64,000 bases of DNA from Nannochloropsis salina CCMP1776 (taxonomy: Eukaryota; Sar; Eustigmatophyceae; Eustigmatales; Monodopsidaceae): contig SDOX01000021.1 of NCBI GenBank assembly GCA_004565275.1, positions 916,230 to 980,229 on the forward strand, read 5' to 3'. Position numbers and translations under genes: made by a program. Of the stretch, positions 32,761 to 47,598 are shown one piece after another. The notes beneath the pieces are model-generated. The model worked only from the letters and a program-made list of their open reading frames with translations. It was not told where the DNA came from and ran no database searches. The number at the start of each line of letters is the position of its first letter. Within the stretch, counting starts at the first letter, position 1.

Positions 32761-33221
32761 TTACGCCGACTTCTTCGCCTTGGTCTTGGGGAGAAGGACT
32801 GTGTAGGGTGAATGGCAAGAAGGGAACACAATGAGACAGGATGTTATATTTACAAGTGAGGAACACCTGACAACCTACCAGAGTGGATGTTAGGGAGGAC
32901 ACCACCGGAAGCGATGGTCACACCGCCCAGAAGCTTGTTGAGCTCCTCGTCGTTGCGGACAGCAAGCTGGACGTGGCGGGGGATGATGCGGGTCTTCTTG
33001 TTGTCGCGAGCGGCGTTCCCAGCCAGCTCGAGAATTTCAGCCGTCAGATACTCGAGGACAGCGGCCAGGTACACGGGGGCACCAGAGCCGACGCGGGCCG
33101 CGTAACGTCCCTTCTTGAGGAAGCGGGAGATACGGCCTACGGGGAACTGGAGACCAGCCTTGGAGGAACGGGACACACCCTTCTTGCCGGAGCCACGGCC
33201 ACCTTTGCCTTTGCCAGCCAT
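32761..33221 (-). CDS. H2A: Histone H2A
   Basis: Two exons, minus strand: 32879..33221 and 32761..32798, with an 80-bp intron (TCTG|GTAGGT to ACACAG|TCC), 126 residues. The core is canonical: [54 protein letters not shown], with the acidic-patch residues in place, then [18 protein letters not shown]. The intron splits the codon for Val in NIHSVLLPKTK, just before the C-terminal docking tail. The tail KTKAKKSA lacks an SQE(F/L) motif, so this is not H2A.X, and the body is not H2A.Z-like. A hairpin of the histone 3'-processing type lies 33 nt beyond the stop, pointing to cell-cycle control even though the gene has an intron. Confidence 0.97.
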
Positions 33222-36148
<2,927 letters not shown>

Positions 36149-36206: not shown

Positions 36207-36222
36207 GGGTTCTATTGAACCC
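36207..36222 (+). promoter_or_regulatory. Candidate histone 3' stem-loop, H3
   Basis: GGGTTC-TATT-GAACCC is a perfect 6-bp stem with a four-base loop 58 nt beyond the H3 stop, after an A-rich stretch. Its size and distance match the hairpin after H4, but the loop is TATT and the closing pair is C-G, so it is a weaker match to the consensus. Confidence 0.55.
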
Positions 36223-37403
36223 CTCATGTACATGGACGACGCCGCGCCTTCCCTTTTATCTGACTTTACTTTGTGGTTGTGTCCGAGTTATATCATTCCC
36301 ACAAATATGGTCCTTGACCACCTACGTACTGTTTTTATTCCAAGGTTGACAAAAACTGCTTGACAGACACGGCCCATCTGGTTGTCAATGGTGAGGTTTT
36401 CCACTACTTCCTGTTTCCGACTCATCTACGTGGCTACATGGTTTCATGCGATGGACAAATAATTTTATCCACAGGGTGTTTTAGTACGTTATCGACAGCA
36501 TGTACATGAGATCATCCGGAGCCTCCAGGTACTTCTCGACCATCATCTTCTGAGGTGCATTGTAATTTTCAGGCCGAGCGAAAGGAGCAAGTGGAGTCAC
36601 TCTGCGGTGTAAACTGCTTATTTATCTTCAAAGAAGGGCCACACTAAGAAAAAATCACGCGAAAAAAAAGACCCAACGGCTTTCAGATTGACCAAATTTC
36701 GATTGAGAGGAATATATTATGGTGGAAAGATGTATATGGGAGGTATTGTTGGTTTTTAATCTGTATAAGTTTAATTTGTCTTTTTAGTATGAAAGCGCTG
36801 TTGTGTAAACATCCCTGTTCACGTTGTTCTCTAGGAAGTCTTTCCTGACTTCAAAAGTCCTTTCCCGGAAGTATGATGGAAAACCGGAGTCTCGCACGCA
36901 AGAAACGAAGTGAAGATACTTTATGGCAGACCGTACTACCCCTTTAAATCAAGAAAATGAATAAACGTTGTGGTCAAATACATGAATATCTGCGTGTCTT
37001 AATCTCTACCAACGAGTTGATCGTTCGCTTCGTGTCCTATAATCTTGACAAAATCCCTTTGTTTTGAGTGGTACATGATTCTCGCCCATCCTCCACTCAC
37101 TGGCACTCGTTTCTCCACCGTCGAGTATCCCGCCCTTGGTTCATGCTCGCGGGATCATAAAACCAAAAGCTTAAACATTACCTTCTTAATTAAGTTCTTG
37201 CCGTGTGGCTGGCGTTTTGGTCCGATTGAGGTCCTTGTCGACATGTTTCTCGTCTCTGGCGGCCCTATTATTTCAGTGACTTGATCACTTCCGCATGCCG
37301 GGTGTTGAGCTGTATTCGTCATCTTATCACACTTATGTTTATTTAAACGATACACCGTCCTTCTCCTGCCTCAGGTTCTTCACCGCATTCACGAAGTACG
37401 ACC
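36223..37403. other. Intergenic between H3 and pescadillo
   Basis: About 1.2 kb, AT-rich, including the pescadillo promoter. No coding or RNA gene was recognised. Confidence 0.4.
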
Positions 37404-40400
37404 ATGGGAGGGACACGGGGCAAGCGGGTTCCTGGCAAAAAGAAGCCCAAGTCTGTCAAAGCGAAGGTCACATCAAAGATGAGCAGCAAGCGCCGTCTTT
37501 CTCGCATGGGAAAGGAACTAAAGAAGGGTCAGAAGGGCATTGTTGCCAACTACATGACAAGGAGTCAAGTTCTGCGCCGATTGCAAATCACTTTGCGAGA
37601 CTTTCGGTATGTGTCGATTGTCTTTCTCACTCGCATGAAGAACCTATTCATAGATCGAACACCGTTTCACCCGCATACGTTTGTGCGAAAGCTGTAATAT
37701 TGTCGGTCGCAACAACCTCGTCATTCTTCCCCCTTCTTTTGTACTCGATTGCCTCGAACCATTCCTGCAGTCGCCTCTGTATCTTGAAGGGGATCTACCC
37801 CCGGGACCCGAAGAAGAAGGCCTCCGGGAAGGACAAGGCATATTACCACATCAAAGACGTGGGATTCTTGTCCCATGAGCCTCTTCTTAACAAATTTCGC
37901 GAATTTAAGGTACGGTCACTTTCCAGTGTTTAGAGCTTTGATTTTCCATCGTGCTGGTACCTGGGCGGCGAGCGCATCCCCTATATGTCCCCAGAATCAT
38001 GCCTTGACGTGGACCCTACGGATATTATTATCACCGGATATTATCACCAGGCCTTCATGAAGAAGGTGCGCAAGGCAGTGTCGCGCGGCGACAAAACCTT
38101 GGCCGAGAAGCGGGAGGCGACGGCCCCGCAATACACCCTCGACCACTTGGTCCGGGAGCGGTACCCCCGCTTCGACGACGCGCTGGGAGACCTCGATGAC
38201 GCCCTCTCCCTCGTCCACCTCTTCGCGACTCTGCCGGCGGACGGGCCCGTGCAAGCGGCGAGAACGGAGCGATGTCGGCAGCTGGCCTTGGAGTGGCAGT
38301 ACTACGTGGCCCGCGCGCACGCTCTGACCAAGGTCTTCGTCTCGGTCAAAGGCGTGTATTTCCAGGCCGAGGTGGGCAGGCAGCCCGTCACCTGGATCGT
38401 CCCGCACGCGTTCACGCAGGTGACGCCCCCGGACGTGGACTTTCGGATCATGCTCACCTTCCTCGAGTTCTACGAGACGCTCCTCAAGTTCACCCTCTTC
38501 AAACTCTACCACCGGCTCGACGTGGCCTACCCTCCGGTACGTGCCCACGCGCTCTCAACGCGCTCCTGCCTACTTCGGGAGCGCAATGACTGCATTTATC
38601 GCCTGCATGCTTGCTTTGATGCCACTCGCTCGTCCCGCCAACACACGGTATGCTCAGAACCCTCATCTCCCTCCCCCACAAGGCCTTCGACGGGCGCTTG
38701 GAGGAGTGTGGCGTCTACATGGCCGCCGTGCGTGGGCTGCCCTTGAAGGGAGCCAGGGGCCTCCTCACATCATCCACCTCGGAGGGGCAAAGTGCACGGA
38801 CAGGGTCGCCGGAAGCGGCTGCCGCTACTCCGAACCGGAAGGTGAAGGGGTTGGAGGCGAAGCTAGCGCGACTCGCGGCGGGGAAGGGGGAAGCAGGGGG
38901 TGATGCGGAGGGAAAGGGGGGGGAGGGGAGGAGGAAGAGGAAGAATACCTGCCAGAAGGGGCGTTGGCGGGGGCATTGGGCCCCGTGATGGAAGACGTGG
39001 TGCGGGGCGGGGGTACGAAGAAGCAGGGGCAGCGCGAGGAGACAGAGGGGGGGGGCGGGGTGAGGGAGAGGAGATGGAGGAGGACGGGGAGAACCCGGAT
39101 CCGGAGGTGCTGCGACGGGCGAAGGAGGAGGCTGCCAAGGCCACGCTCTTCAAGGGCCTCCGGTTCTTTCTAGGGCGGGAGGTGCCCCTGTCATGGGTCC
39201 ACCTGGTGCTGGCGAGCTTCGGCGGGCAGGTGGGCTGGGAGGGGGAAGGCTCGCCCTTTGCGGAGGCAGACGTGGGGGTCACGCACCAGGTGGTAGACAG
39301 GCCGGTGGCCGCGGGTTCTCGGCGGGCAGGGCGCGAGTACGTGCAGCCCCAGTGGATCTTTGACTCGGTGAATGCCCGCGTGCGGTTGCCTGTTGACTTG
39401 TACGGGCCGGGGAAGGCGCTGCCGGTAAGCACAAAGAGAGGGTTGGCGGGGGGGGGGGGCGGGAGAGCTAGGATACAATGTGCGGGCTGACATGTTGTGA
39501 ACACAGCGCCCGGTCCCCATACTCATGCCCTGCGGCGTCCCTGCCATGTGTTATCTCAGCCGCATTTGTCCCCCTTTGTGGACGACGAGAAGGAGGGTTA
39601 CATCCCTGCCTATCGAGAGCAGCTGGAGCTCCTTCAGGGGAAAGCTGCCGCCACTGTTAATGCCGCAAACTCGAAAGAGGAGGACGAGGACGCCGACGAG
39701 GAGGGAGAAGTGGAGGAGGAGGAGGAGGGCGAGGAGGAGGAGGAGGACGACGCAGAGGATGAAGAGGAAGAAGAGGAAGAAGGAGCGCAATCGTCCGAGG
39801 ATAGAAAGGTGCGTCTTGCGTTTGAGCTGAGGATCCATTCATCTGGGAGGGGGGGGGAAGGGCACCACTCCAAAGGGGGAAGGCATGTCAGGCACGTTCC
39901 CTCACCCGCCCCGTCGGCGCCGCGAGGCGTCAGGGGGACCCCCGGGGGTGGGTTCGGTCGATGCGTGCATTCTGTTGACAGTTGGGTGGGAGAGAAATAG
40001 GTCCCTTGAAGGGGCTCGGGACGGGTGCCTACGGTTCGCTCGCCTCGGCGATCGCGGGCACGGCGAGTGATTAACAAGCGCCGTCCACATGTTGAGATTG
40101 TCGACCTTACCCGTAGGCGAGGCAGCCACGGATTGGCCGCGGGGAGGGAGGAGGAGAAGGGATGGGGAGCTGCAGCGGTGTGCGCGCGTCAGCTGAGCAT
40201 GTCTGGTGCAAGTCCCCTTTTCCCCTCCCGACTGACATGAGACTATCCTTCTTGTTCTCTACGTCCTCCCACAGCCGCAAGTCTCGGGCATGCGCAAGAA
40301 AGGTCAGAGAAGTAGCGAGGACGCGTCGGAGAAGGACGAGGCGCAGGCGCTGGCCGAGATCATGATGCCGCGAAAGCACCGGCGGGCCTACCAAGTCGCC

Positions 40401-41007: not shown

Positions 41008-41023
41008 GGGACTGAAAAGTCCC
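41008..41023 (-). promoter_or_regulatory. Histone 3' mRNA stem-loop, H4
   Basis: On the minus strand GGGACT-TTTC-AGTCCC is a perfect 6-bp stem and TTTC loop, 58 nt after the H4 stop and preceded by an A-rich stretch (CAAATTCAA). Loop and closing pair are identical to the H2A hairpin and to the animal element, while the stem bases differ in compensating pairs. That supports selection on the structure. Confidence 0.78.
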
Positions 41024-41080: not shown

Positions 41081-42649
<1,569 letters not shown>

Positions 42650-43468
42650 ATGTCGAAACCATCCAATTTCGACCTCATCAGGGAGGCCATCCTTGCTTTG
42701 AAAGATCGCACAGGCTCCTCTCCCGCGGCTATTAGGGCGTACTTGACAAAAAATAGTCCCTCATTTCAGGACGACCATCACTTCAAAGCGGCTCTCAGGT
42801 CGGGCGAAAAAACTGGAAAGTTGATCAAGGTACGTATGAATAACATGTTCCACAGTATCCTGACTTTCTGAAAGATATTCTGGTAGAGTTTTTTCACAGC
42901 CATCGTGGGTGGGACCCTTCGCCCTTGCTTGTGAAAAGGATTTTTTTTCCATGCACGCTTTTTTGGAAGGTGGAGTTTTGGGTAAGATCATGTACTAAGG
43001 TTGCTCAAAATTTCGGGTCAGGTCAAAGCGTCGTACAAGCTGAGTGAGGCCGCCAAAAAAATCGCGAAAGCTGTTAAGGCAGTCAAGAAGGTGGCGAAGA
43101 AAGCAAGCGCTGCGGCCAGGAAGAGCGCCCCCAAAGAGAAGGTAGCATCCCTAAAAAGAGCTGCGGCTGGTCCCGCGCCGGCGAAGAAAGTTGTCGCAAA
43201 GAAAAAGTATGCCCCTGGAAACAAGTCTTCAACAAAGAAAGCGGTGCCTGCCAAGAAGAGAACTGCCGCAAAGAAATCCGCACCCGCCAAGAGACCTGTC
43301 GCGAAAAAAACTGTAGCAAAGAAATCTGCCCCCACGAAGAAAGCTACTTCTTCAAAGAAATCTGCGTCTTCAAAGAAAATTACTCCTGCAACGAAAGCTG
43401 TCGCTTCCAAAAAGACAGCTCCCAAAAGGGCCGCTCTCAAAAAGAAGAGCACCCTGAAGAAGAAGTAA
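42650..43468 (+). CDS. H1: Histone H1
   Basis: Two exons: 42650..42829 and 43022..43468, with an intron of 192 bp (ATCAAG|GTACGT to GTCAG|GTCAAA), 208 residues. Exon 1 is an H15 winged helix: SNFDLIREAILALKDRTGSSPAAIRAYLTKNSP, HHFKAALRSGEKTGKLIK. Exon 2 completes it (VKASYKLSEAAKK) and continues as a Lys/Ala/Ser-rich tail with repeated AKK, SAPAKK and TKKA units. Linker histone H1 binds the nucleosome dyad and compacts chromatin. The start is the ATG giving MSKPSNF, since the longer open frame upstream is not family-like. No hairpin like that of H2A and H4 follows the stop, which suggests ordinary polyadenylation. Confidence 0.92.
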
Positions 43469-43917: not shown

Positions 43918-46027
43918 CTACACGGTCCCCCACCCACCTTCCCCCTCCCGTCGCCCCCCTTCCACGTCCCCTTCTCCCATGAACTGGCTCACTGAGAGCT
44001 TCTCCAGCAGCCTCACCAAAGACTTGGCCCGCTTCTTGTGCCTCTTCCTCTCCTCCGTGTCCCCGATCCAGTTCTCACCCAGGGCGAACCGGTGCAGACA
44101 GGCCGTCAGTGTCTCGGTCAGGCTGAAAGGCTCCTTCGACACTGCCACCCGCCGCACCGCCCTCAGGACCTCTTGGTCCGGCTGCTTTCTCTCGTCCAGA
44201 AAATCGGCCCAAAAGACGCGAAAAAAGGACGCAGCCACAGCCCCGACACTCGCCACGTCCACCACCTTCAACACCGCTAGAGACAGCCAGCCCTTCGCTA
44301 TCAGGTGGCTGAGAGCCCTGGCAAGGTTCACGGCCTTGTGGCCCCCTGCCGCCCTTCTCTCTACCTTTCCCCCGCCCGGAGTGCTCCGACCCTCCGCGTC
44401 GTCCGCTCCAAAGCCAGCATTCTCCTGGTCCAATACCTTGAAAGCGTCCCAATAGGTGAGCTGAATGGTGAATTTGTATTTATCGTGGTACTCGCACAGT
44501 CGTCCTAGCAAGTACGCGTAGTACGGATTGTAGGCCCGCTCCTGCCCCAGGCAATCCACGATGACCCGCACCACCTCCCGTTCCTGCTTGTCGCTCAAGT
44601 TCAGGCGCATCAGGCGTTCGAAGGCGTCCTGGTAGTCGCAGGCGGTCATGACGCTCGCGAAAATCGCCCGTCTCACGTCCGTGTTCATGCGCTGCCTCGA
44701 CGCCAAGGAGTTGATCTTCTCCTGCAGGCTCGAGCTCACGGGACTCGCGGCGGCCATCGGAAACCCTTGCCCCAGGCCTGCGACACCCAGCTGCCCCCCC
44801 TCGCCCCTCCCCGCCTCCTTCCCCGCCCAGGCGGCTCCCACGCGCCACCACCGGCCGCGGGAAGCCGAGTCGCGCATGTCCTCCCAAGAGACGTGCAGGG
44901 TCTCCCCGCTCTCTCCCCCGCCCTGGCCTTTGCCGACCCCCCCGCCGCCCCTCGCCCGGAGCACCAGCTTGCGAAGACGCTGCGTGCGTTCTCCTTCCTG
45001 GAGCTGGGCCTGTCGGCGCTTGTTGTTCTTCAAGTCGTTCAGGGTCTCGAGCATGTGCCGGACCCGGGCATTGACGTCCCCCTCTCCGGCCCCCACCGAG
45101 GCCGCGCGCTCCTGCACCGCCAGCACGATGTCCTTGAGCGCCCGTGGGTCGTCCGCCCTCAGCTGAGGCCCGGCCGTGCGCAGGAGCAGGAGGAGGAGCT
45201 CCACGTCCCTCTCTCCCAGGGGGCCCACCAGCTCGCGGATCAAGCCGTAGACGAGGGTGCAAGCCACCACCCCGAAGGAGTATAGGTAGGCAAGAATGAG
45301 GACCAGGTTGTCCAGGCGACGGGCCAGGCCCGCCTCGACAGCCTCCCTCTCCTCCTCGTCCTCCCCTCCGTCCCCATCCCCTAACGCCAGCAGCCGCTTC
45401 CGCGCCGTGTGGTACTCCTGACAGACTCGCTCCAGCACATGCGCCCCCAACTCCCCTCCCCCGCCCCCCCCGGCCATGTGCACGCCCCCCACCAGGGCCG
45501 TGTGCGTGGGCACCAAGCCCTTCATCACCTGGGCTTCGCTCACGCACGTCTGCAGCAGCCTCTCGGTCAGGAGCGCGTGCATGCGCCTCCGCGGGTGCCG
45601 TGCATAGAGGGCGCTGACGTCTCGGATGCTCGTCTCCAGGTTCGCCTCCGAAACCCGGTTCGCGAGCCCGTTCAAGGTGCGACGAAGGAGCAAAAACTCG
45701 GCGCTCGTGGTGTCCTCGGGATCCTCCCCTCCTTGTCCCTCCCCCGTCCTCCGCCCGGACCGCAAGTGCGGGGGGAGGTACTTGCCCGGGGCGTCGGTCC
45801 CTGCCGGAGCCTCGAGGGGCCGCCCGTAGATGTCCTCCCCCCGCACCGGGCGATAGGCGTGGGCGACCACTTCCCGGGTCTCAGGCGGGGGCTCGAGGGC
45901 GGCGGCGGCGGCGGAGGAGGAGCCGGCGGCATGCTCATCATCTTCTTCTTCACCTCCCTCCTCCTCTTCTTCCTCCTCTTCTTCCTCCTCTTCTTCATCC
46001 TCTTCTTCCTTCTCTTCTTCCTCCTCT

Positions 46028-46062
<35 letters not shown>

Positions 46063-47076
46063 TTCTTCCTCCTCTTCTTCCTCCTCCACCTCCTCGTCGT
46101 CGTCCTCCTCCTCCTCGCTGCTCCAGAAATCTGGTATCTCGCCATCCTTTTCCGCAAGTTTCGCTTGCCCATTCTCCTCCTCCCCTTCCCCCCCTTTTCC
46201 TTCCCACGACAGACCACCCTCTCCCTCAAAGTCCTCCTCGGCATCACCCAAATCCACTTCGTAATCCCAGCCCCCTTCCTCCTCTTCCTCTTTCTCGCCC
46301 CCTCTACCTCCTTCAGCGCCCCTTTCTTTTCCTTGCTGTGCCAAGAGCAGTCTCTCTAGCCCACTTCCGCCCCTGCCTCTTCCCGCTGACTCCGCTCTCC
46401 TCCCCCCCTCCCCCGTGTCCGAGGAACCCGTCGCTCCACCCACCAAGGAGGAGATCCGATCCGTTGCCTCCAGGAGGTCCCCAATACTCTCGTCGAAGCC
46501 CTCGTACTTCATCAGGTCCTTCATTAGCTTCTTCTCCTTCTTCCCTCTGTCTTTTCCTGAGAGACCCAGCTTTCGCTCCAGGTAGCGTATCTCCTCATCC
46601 TCCGCCAGGATGAAAGGATCCCTCCGGTCAGATGCGGGCACGCGACTTTTTCCCTCTTCAGCTTTGCTCTTTTTGCTATTTTTGTTTTGACTGACTTCAA
46701 GACCTGAAGCAGCTCCACCGCTGGGTGTAGAATGGGAAGATATTCCAGCCCGAGCCCGCTGCACGAGTCCTAACGTTTTGCGAAGTGACAAGCCATTACT
46801 GTCTGCTTGACGGGAGGCCATCTCCTGAGAAGGACGGGCGCGCTTCACACCCGCCTCGAGAGCAACCACGTTTGATTGCTGCCGCTTAGTCCCCGAGCTT
46901 ATCGCGACTTTTCGTTGCTTTTTTGCCGCACGTTCTTGTTTGCGAAGCTCTTTGCGAGATGGAGGCCTCCCTTTTTTTTTAACTTTCAATTTGCCGCCCG
47001 GGCTGAAACCAGTATCGCCCAGCATAAGCTCATGTTGAAGGACTGATGGCAGCCGCAAAGGGTCTTTCTTCCTCAT
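43918..47076 (-). CDS. NOM1: NOM1/Sgd1-like nucleolar MIF4G and MA3 protein
   Basis: 1052 residues in one exon from the ATG at 47074-47076 (MRKKDPLRLPSVL); the frame runs open further upstream but with no homologous sequence. The N-terminal third is basic and lysine-rich (KVKKKGRPPSRKELRKQERAAKKQRK), typical of nucleolar proteins, then comes a long acidic region with a poly-Glu tract at about residues 315-372 and KYLPPHLR. The MIF4G domain spans about 450-690 (LRRTLNGLANRVSEANLE, LYSFGVVACTLVYGLIREL), and the MA3 domain about 785-900 (RAIFASVMTACDYQDAFERLMRLNLSDKQEREVVRVIVDCL, YNPYYAYLLGRLCEYHDKYKFTIQ). Family members work with the DEAH/DEAD helicase eIF4A3-type factors in 18S rRNA production. 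It is divergent from phytochelatin synthase. Confidence 0.9.
45940..46110 (-). repeat. Poly-Glu coding microsatellite in NOM1
   Basis: A long TTC/TCC run on the plus strand encodes an almost pure Glu tract within the NOM1 reading frame. The frame stays open through it, so the repeat length is kept in multiples of three. Confidence 0.8.
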
Positions 47077-47598
47077 GCTGTACGTACGATTCGAACAGGC
47101 ACGAAACCAAAAAGAATCACAGCGCTTAGAATATCGGAAGTGAGAGTCTGGGCTGCGCAGCGAGTTCCAAATGGTCGGGAAGGTGCTTGTCACAATCCCT
47201 ATCAACAGATGACAAATTACCAAGAGATTAGGTATCAAACGAGCGAAAGCATGCACCGCATATTCCGTGATGCACAATGTCACAAAATGCCATTGAGTCC
47301 TTCGACCTCAAGGGGGGGCTGAGGAACAATCTGTGGATACGAAAGCAGGGCGGCGCCTATGTCTCATGGCACACGACAGCACTCGCACACGCCATGGCAC
47401 GCGCTCCCCCCTGCATCCCTTTTTTTGTCTTTTATGCTTCCTCTGCTTGCGCGCAACGGCGCATAAGCTGTACGCGATCCTGATATGTATTCCACTCTCT
47501 TGTCCATCTCTCAGGGGCGCTTTTAAAACCTCCCTTCGGCCCCTTCGCCTTTTCCACGCACAGGCCCTTCCTCTTGCGACCTTATCGCGCCAGGTTTC
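47077..47598. other. Divergent promoter, NOM1 / phytochelatin synthase
   Basis: A 522-bp gap between two start codons. A metal-response element was not recognised by eye. No gene was seen. Confidence 0.4.

Follow-up and report, generated by a model that had tools for sequence, protein, structure and literature searches.

A loosened form of the animal histone stem-loop is probably present in the histone messages of the alga Nannochloropsis salina. As a hairpin is located 32-98 bases past the stop in each of the seven canonical core histone genes detected in the 26.5-Mb genome, the stems show paired changes and an SLBP domain is encoded, stem-loop-directed histone mRNA metabolism is likely in this alga, and the hairpins would most likely be read by the SLBP of the same genome. 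These observations support the proposal of the first-pass annotation that a histone 3' element follows the H4 gene of the window, the window being the whole stretch of 64,000 nucleotides that was analysed. Three of the seven hairpins lie in the window, those of H3 and H2A being absent from the first-pass annotation, together with the following genes:

41008..41023, minus strand: H4 3' hairpin GGGACT-TTTC-AGTCCC (H4_C57), by direct reading and a held-out model (23.3 bits)
41081..41392, minus strand: histone H4 coding sequence, 103 aa, intronless, by open reading frame and H4 protein match
36207..36222, plus strand: H3 3' hairpin GGGTTC-TATT-GAACCC (H3_C57), 58 bases past the stop
35738..36148, plus strand: histone H3 coding sequence, 136 aa, intronless, by open reading frame and PF00125
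32711..32728, minus strand: H2A 3' hairpin GAGGCCT-TTTC-AGGCCTC (H2A_C57), 32 bases past the exon 2 stop
32761..33221, minus strand: canonical H2A gene in two exons, by PF00125, with exon ends set by eye
42380-43468, plus strand: two-exon gene for linker histone H1 (PF00538, E 5.1e-12)
37295-38746, plus strand: Pescadillo_N in two pieces (PF06732), a gene between or beside the histone genes
43918-47283, minus strand: MIF4G plus MA3 protein (PF02854, PF02847), between or beside the histone genes and presumably NOM1-like

Read on the minus strand from 41023 to 41008, the H4 hairpin consists of six Watson-Crick pairs with a T-A closing pair and a TTTC loop, and a gap of 57 bases separates it from the stop, so that the stem begins at base 58, as had been described before. 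The exact 16-mer has a single occurrence in the 26.5-Mb genome. Six Watson-Crick pairs around a TTTC loop were encountered once in 162,720 background bases on both strands (approximately 0.0005 per 150 nt), a rate which is if anything too high because the background was partly fetched for near matches to the same pattern. Near matches to the 16-mer in the genome (at most three mismatches) amounted to 97 and 90 versus 105 and 100 in the reversed control, and sequence similarity alone is therefore uninformative.

Histone-fold genes were gathered by PF00125 (12 matches) and H4 genes by protein search (two matches), after which the 3' flanks were read. The search was exon-wise and intron-broken genes may have escaped, while L010-L013, which by their appearance we take to be NF-Y or TAF-type histone folds, were excluded from the canonical count of two H4, two H3, two H2B and one H2A gene. 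Beyond the window, the hairpins are:

H3_C78: GGGTTC-TCTT-GAACCC
H4_C78: GGGTTC-CTTA-GAACCC
H2B_C12: GGGTTC-CTTTA-GAACCC, with a five-base loop
H2B_C93: GGGCCT-TTTC-AGGCCT, with a G-U outer pair and one further G-C outside

A 6-bp stem thus stands behind the stop of all seven genes, with a loop of four bases in six and of five bases in H2B_C12, and the second stem base, position G7 of the human element, is G throughout. The UUUC loop with a U-A closing pair is restricted to three hairpins (H4_C57, H2B_C93 and H2A_C57); the other four loops are UAUU, UCUU, CUUA and CUUUA. Accordingly, the hairpins fall into two sharply different classes, TTTC-loop hairpins on the one hand and GGGTTC-N4/5-GAACCC on the other. 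The first-pass annotation had named H4 copies devoid of a hairpin as evidence against the element, and the second H4 gene, H4_C78, does possess one, of the other class, so that the two classes are divided between two H4 genes for the same protein. In the canonical H2A gene, a 3' hairpin is present despite an intron near the coding end.

The search for an SLBP RNA-binding domain, suggested earlier as a check, gave one PF15247 match in the genome, well over the curated cut-off (E 3.6e-27, 99.1 bits versus 27; a second value is 96 bits). Like the solved SLBPs 4TUX, 4TV0, 4TUW and 4L8R, all of which it matches (best 4TUX, E 2.2e-21), the alga protein has all 70 positions of the RNA-binding domain. 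Unlike animal SLBP, it possesses a lysine at the Arg181 column (STKRF versus SRRAF of 4TUX), a column placed from the 4TUX match and by pattern and not by a structure, and has TPDI in place of TPNK. Among 94 database relatives, P0001-P0007 are closest, and the organisms named after them include many oomycetes, Chrysoparadoxa and Chrysophaeum, and also conifers, green algae and animals, a spread in keeping with a stramenopile alga. The column could be read in 82 of the 94, with lysine in 36 and arginine in 46; lysine is found in the nearest relatives P0001-P0007 and in those SLBPs with oomycete names that could be read, and arginine in Chrysoparadoxa (P0026) and Chrysophaeum (P0034). The G of the second stem pair (G7) is the sole base read by human SLBP through hydrogen bonds (PMC10388802). 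All seven hairpins retain the G-C pair that animal SLBP reads, although the G-reading arginine is a lysine in the alga SLBP.

In the reading that we favour with fair confidence, the hairpin is the histone 3' stem-loop of the alga, of a loosened kind, bound by its SLBP and setting the mRNA 3' end. Transcripts from every canonical core histone gene would form a short stem with G-C as the second and third pair 32-98 bases past the stop, SLBP would mainly recognize the second-pair G together with the form of the short U-containing loop, and the SLBP-bound hairpin would set the 3' end few bases downstream and may couple histone mRNA to S phase, an animal-type U7 directed to a purine-rich element being unlikely as the cleavage guide. 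The location of the hairpins, their occurrence on canonical histones alone and the presence of SLBP lead us to infer that they end the mRNA, which would involve recognition by SLBP, cleavage and an end devoid of poly(A).

The animal histone stem-loop has a UUUC-type loop closed by a U-A pair, and its 5' flank is A/C-rich. The alga hairpins resemble the animal element (RF00032) in the 6-bp stem, the four-base loop, the G-C second pair and the location just behind canonical histone stops, and at H4, H2B_C93 and H2A_C57 also in the UUUC loop closed by U-A. The 15 nt 5' of the stems are likewise rich in A and C (A+C 0.73-0.93 versus a background mean of 0.51, sd 0.14). They are unlike the animal element in that four of the seven loops differ, one of them having five bases, in that the stems are GGGUUC or GGGACU, and in that they stand below the reach of Rfam; an ACCCA flank was not seen, nor was a purine-rich element by eye, and no 5-mer was shared above shuffles. 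With the Rfam Histone3 model RF00032, a genome scan in which 75 of 3471 first-look candidates were scored recognized none of the seven sites (best 17.9 bits elsewhere, cut-off 34), and there was no match in the window at E<=1 and none for H4 and H2A at E<=10 in 91-base stretches. Nothing credible emerged when a known RNA was sought at the H4 site with Rfam. The designation 'metazoan-style' chosen earlier is not supported, with Rfam Histone3 giving nothing credible and four of seven loops not UUUC, and neither is the U7 part of the 'SLBP/U7' processing element, with no purine-rich element seen and a U7 search whose best score was 19.4 bits, below the cut-off of 34, among the 65 candidates scored out of 2922, and in which 12 of the 14 controls from prokaryotes matched too. 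LSM genes gave 20 matches, 17 over the cut-off, among which Lsm10 and Lsm11 were not told apart.

In an alternative that we consider rather unlikely, the stem-loop is an SLBP-bound internal element for stability or translation, and the mRNA ends arise by cleavage and polyadenylation at a point beyond it. Besides the failure to find U7 and the purine-rich downstream element, it is favoured by the T-rich 70 nt downstream of the hairpins, which could serve ordinary 3' processing; the commonest 5-mer, CTTTT, is present in six of seven flanks, but is within the range of composition-matched shuffles, and that T-richness as a motif does not exceed these shuffles counts against the alternative. The intron of H2A also agrees with this alternative, as animal replication-dependent histone genes are described as intronless (PMC8178370). 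On the other hand, the hairpins are near the stop and on canonical core histones only, as in animals, which speaks against it.

Among the hairpins, the stems vary by paired changes, which are two-sided in four of the six pairs. As MAFFT misplaced the additional loop base of H2B_C12, this row was left out, and the pair count rests on six of the seven hairpins. All 36 pair cells pair, whereby pairs 1, 4, 5 and 6 change on both sides and G-C is constant at pairs 2 and 3 of the six aligned hairpins; independent events are fewer than cells because the sequences are few and split into two classes. The covariation score of the six hairpins was 0.79 versus 0.35 for shuffles, none of the 500 being as high, and the number of pairs with two-sided change 4 versus 2.0 (21 of 500 as high), while further pair types were not above shuffles (6 versus 6.4; 409 of 500 as high). 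A model, R1, built from five of the seven hairpins (without H2B_C12 and H4_C57) ranked H4_C57 third on the window at 23.3 bits, after two training members and with the next place at 15.6 bits. Elsewhere it gave 17.8 bits to the held-out H2B_C12, 17.3 bits to the non-histone L057 and 23.0 bits to L052, which lies in a long open frame. With approximately 60 nt of context, the hairpin is present in six of seven minimum-energy folds, H3_C78 favouring another fold, and fold z-scores range from -0.58 to -4.01, below -2 in two of seven.

The loop and closing pair differ together between the hairpin classes, and these two sharply different classes might reflect two systems, with the TTTC-loop hairpins as SLBP sites and the GGGTTC-N4/5-GAACCC hairpins read by another factor or involved in termination. 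We consider this improbable, as place, gene set and the G-C second and third pair are common to both classes, the protein-identical H4 genes carry one class each and the genome has a single SLBP domain match; moreover, loci L059 and L060, which the animal model of Rfam partly recognizes, have TTTA loops, with a C-G closing pair at the L059 H3 hairpin. As a more tentative extension of the reading with a single SLBP-bound stem-loop, one lysine-bearing SLBP may serve both classes, with the loop and upper stem released, the two basal G-C pairs fixed and no animal-type U7 guide.

Counted with a G-U permitted as outer pair, G as the second base and four or more G or C in the arm, hairpins of this type occur in the background at 0.021 per 150 nt, and their occurrence at seven of seven genes would have a probability of approximately 2e-12 if independent, a figure qualified by a criterion fixed after the hairpins were seen and by paralogues that are not fully independent. 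Likeness between the two H3 genes amounts to 98% in coding DNA and falls to approximately 49% over the 150 nt that follow the stop, with all 12 stem bases kept, while the two H4 genes are 95% and 60% alike, respectively, and differ in hairpin class. GGGTTCN{3,6}GAACCC is found at five places genome-wide, four of them behind histone stops and the fifth in an open frame of L045; as the reversed control also gave five places, it is the location of these places that counts and not their number. The pattern GGNCTTTTCAGNCC has 10 places genome-wide, in four of which the letters at N match; three of these are behind histone stops and the fourth is L052, inside an open frame of approximately 970 codons. 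That the hairpins are chance palindromes has thus a negligible probability, since, even with GGGTTCN{3,6}GAACCC neither rarer nor commoner than in its reversed control, four of its five places are just behind histone stops, the 0.021 expected per 150 nt contrasts with seven of seven genes and the stems change in pairs.

Histone genes of Volvox and Chlamydomonas possess a 3' palindrome, and a 2008 survey reportedly covered the histone stem-loops of early eukaryotes. According to a review (PMC6723414), such histone mRNA ends occur in some protozoa and all metazoans, with a stem-loop in Perkinsus marinus, so that the kind is known outside animals. The likeness of the alga hairpins to those of Perkinsus, Volvox and Chlamydomonas is one of description. 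Among the open-literature papers listed in the searches, none reports this element in a stramenopile alga; the freedom of the loop, two classes in one genome and lysine for the G-reading arginine look new, although part may be in print. The alga has a small genome and combines a naturally occurring range of loop and stem variants with an Arg-to-Lys SLBP, which makes the minimal hairpin need of SLBP testable, as well as how histone mRNA ends arise where no animal-type U7 is evident. As the Rfam model misses these hairpins, such systems may be under-counted outside animals.

Among viral contigs, no H2B, H4 or SLBP relative was detected, and one distant H3 was (43% identity, L070). A scan of genome contigs showed six H2B loci (L059-L064) in prokaryote MAGs, the histone genes of which we infer to be eukaryote contamination. 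Histone-like hairpins are present at L059, L060, L061 and L064, while L062 and L063 have none within 300 nt or to the locus end. Rfam Histone3 recognizes 12 places on L059-L061 with 27-39 bits, six over the cut-off, and gives 17.7 bits to the L064 H2B hairpin; the MAG of L064 also holds an H3 gene, seemingly with an intron, without such a hairpin.

With respect to histone variants of the alga, no perfect 6-bp hairpin was present within 320 nt of any of four genes, namely the gene ending in SQDY (C12) and the gene of C56, taken by their motifs to be H2A.X and H2A.Z-like, respectively, a divergent 276-codon frame resembling H2B (C72), and the H1 gene. This strict test, which for H2A.X is the only one that begins at the true stop, would also miss H2B_C93 with its G-U outer pair. 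When G-U pairs are admitted, only weak stems appear at these genes; the most stable of them, a TTTC hairpin rich in G-U, follows the H1 stop at a distance of 211 bases. At G000:C12:248966-250605 (L004, L009), an SQDY-ending H2A.X-type gene without a hairpin forms a divergent pair with an H2B gene that carries one.
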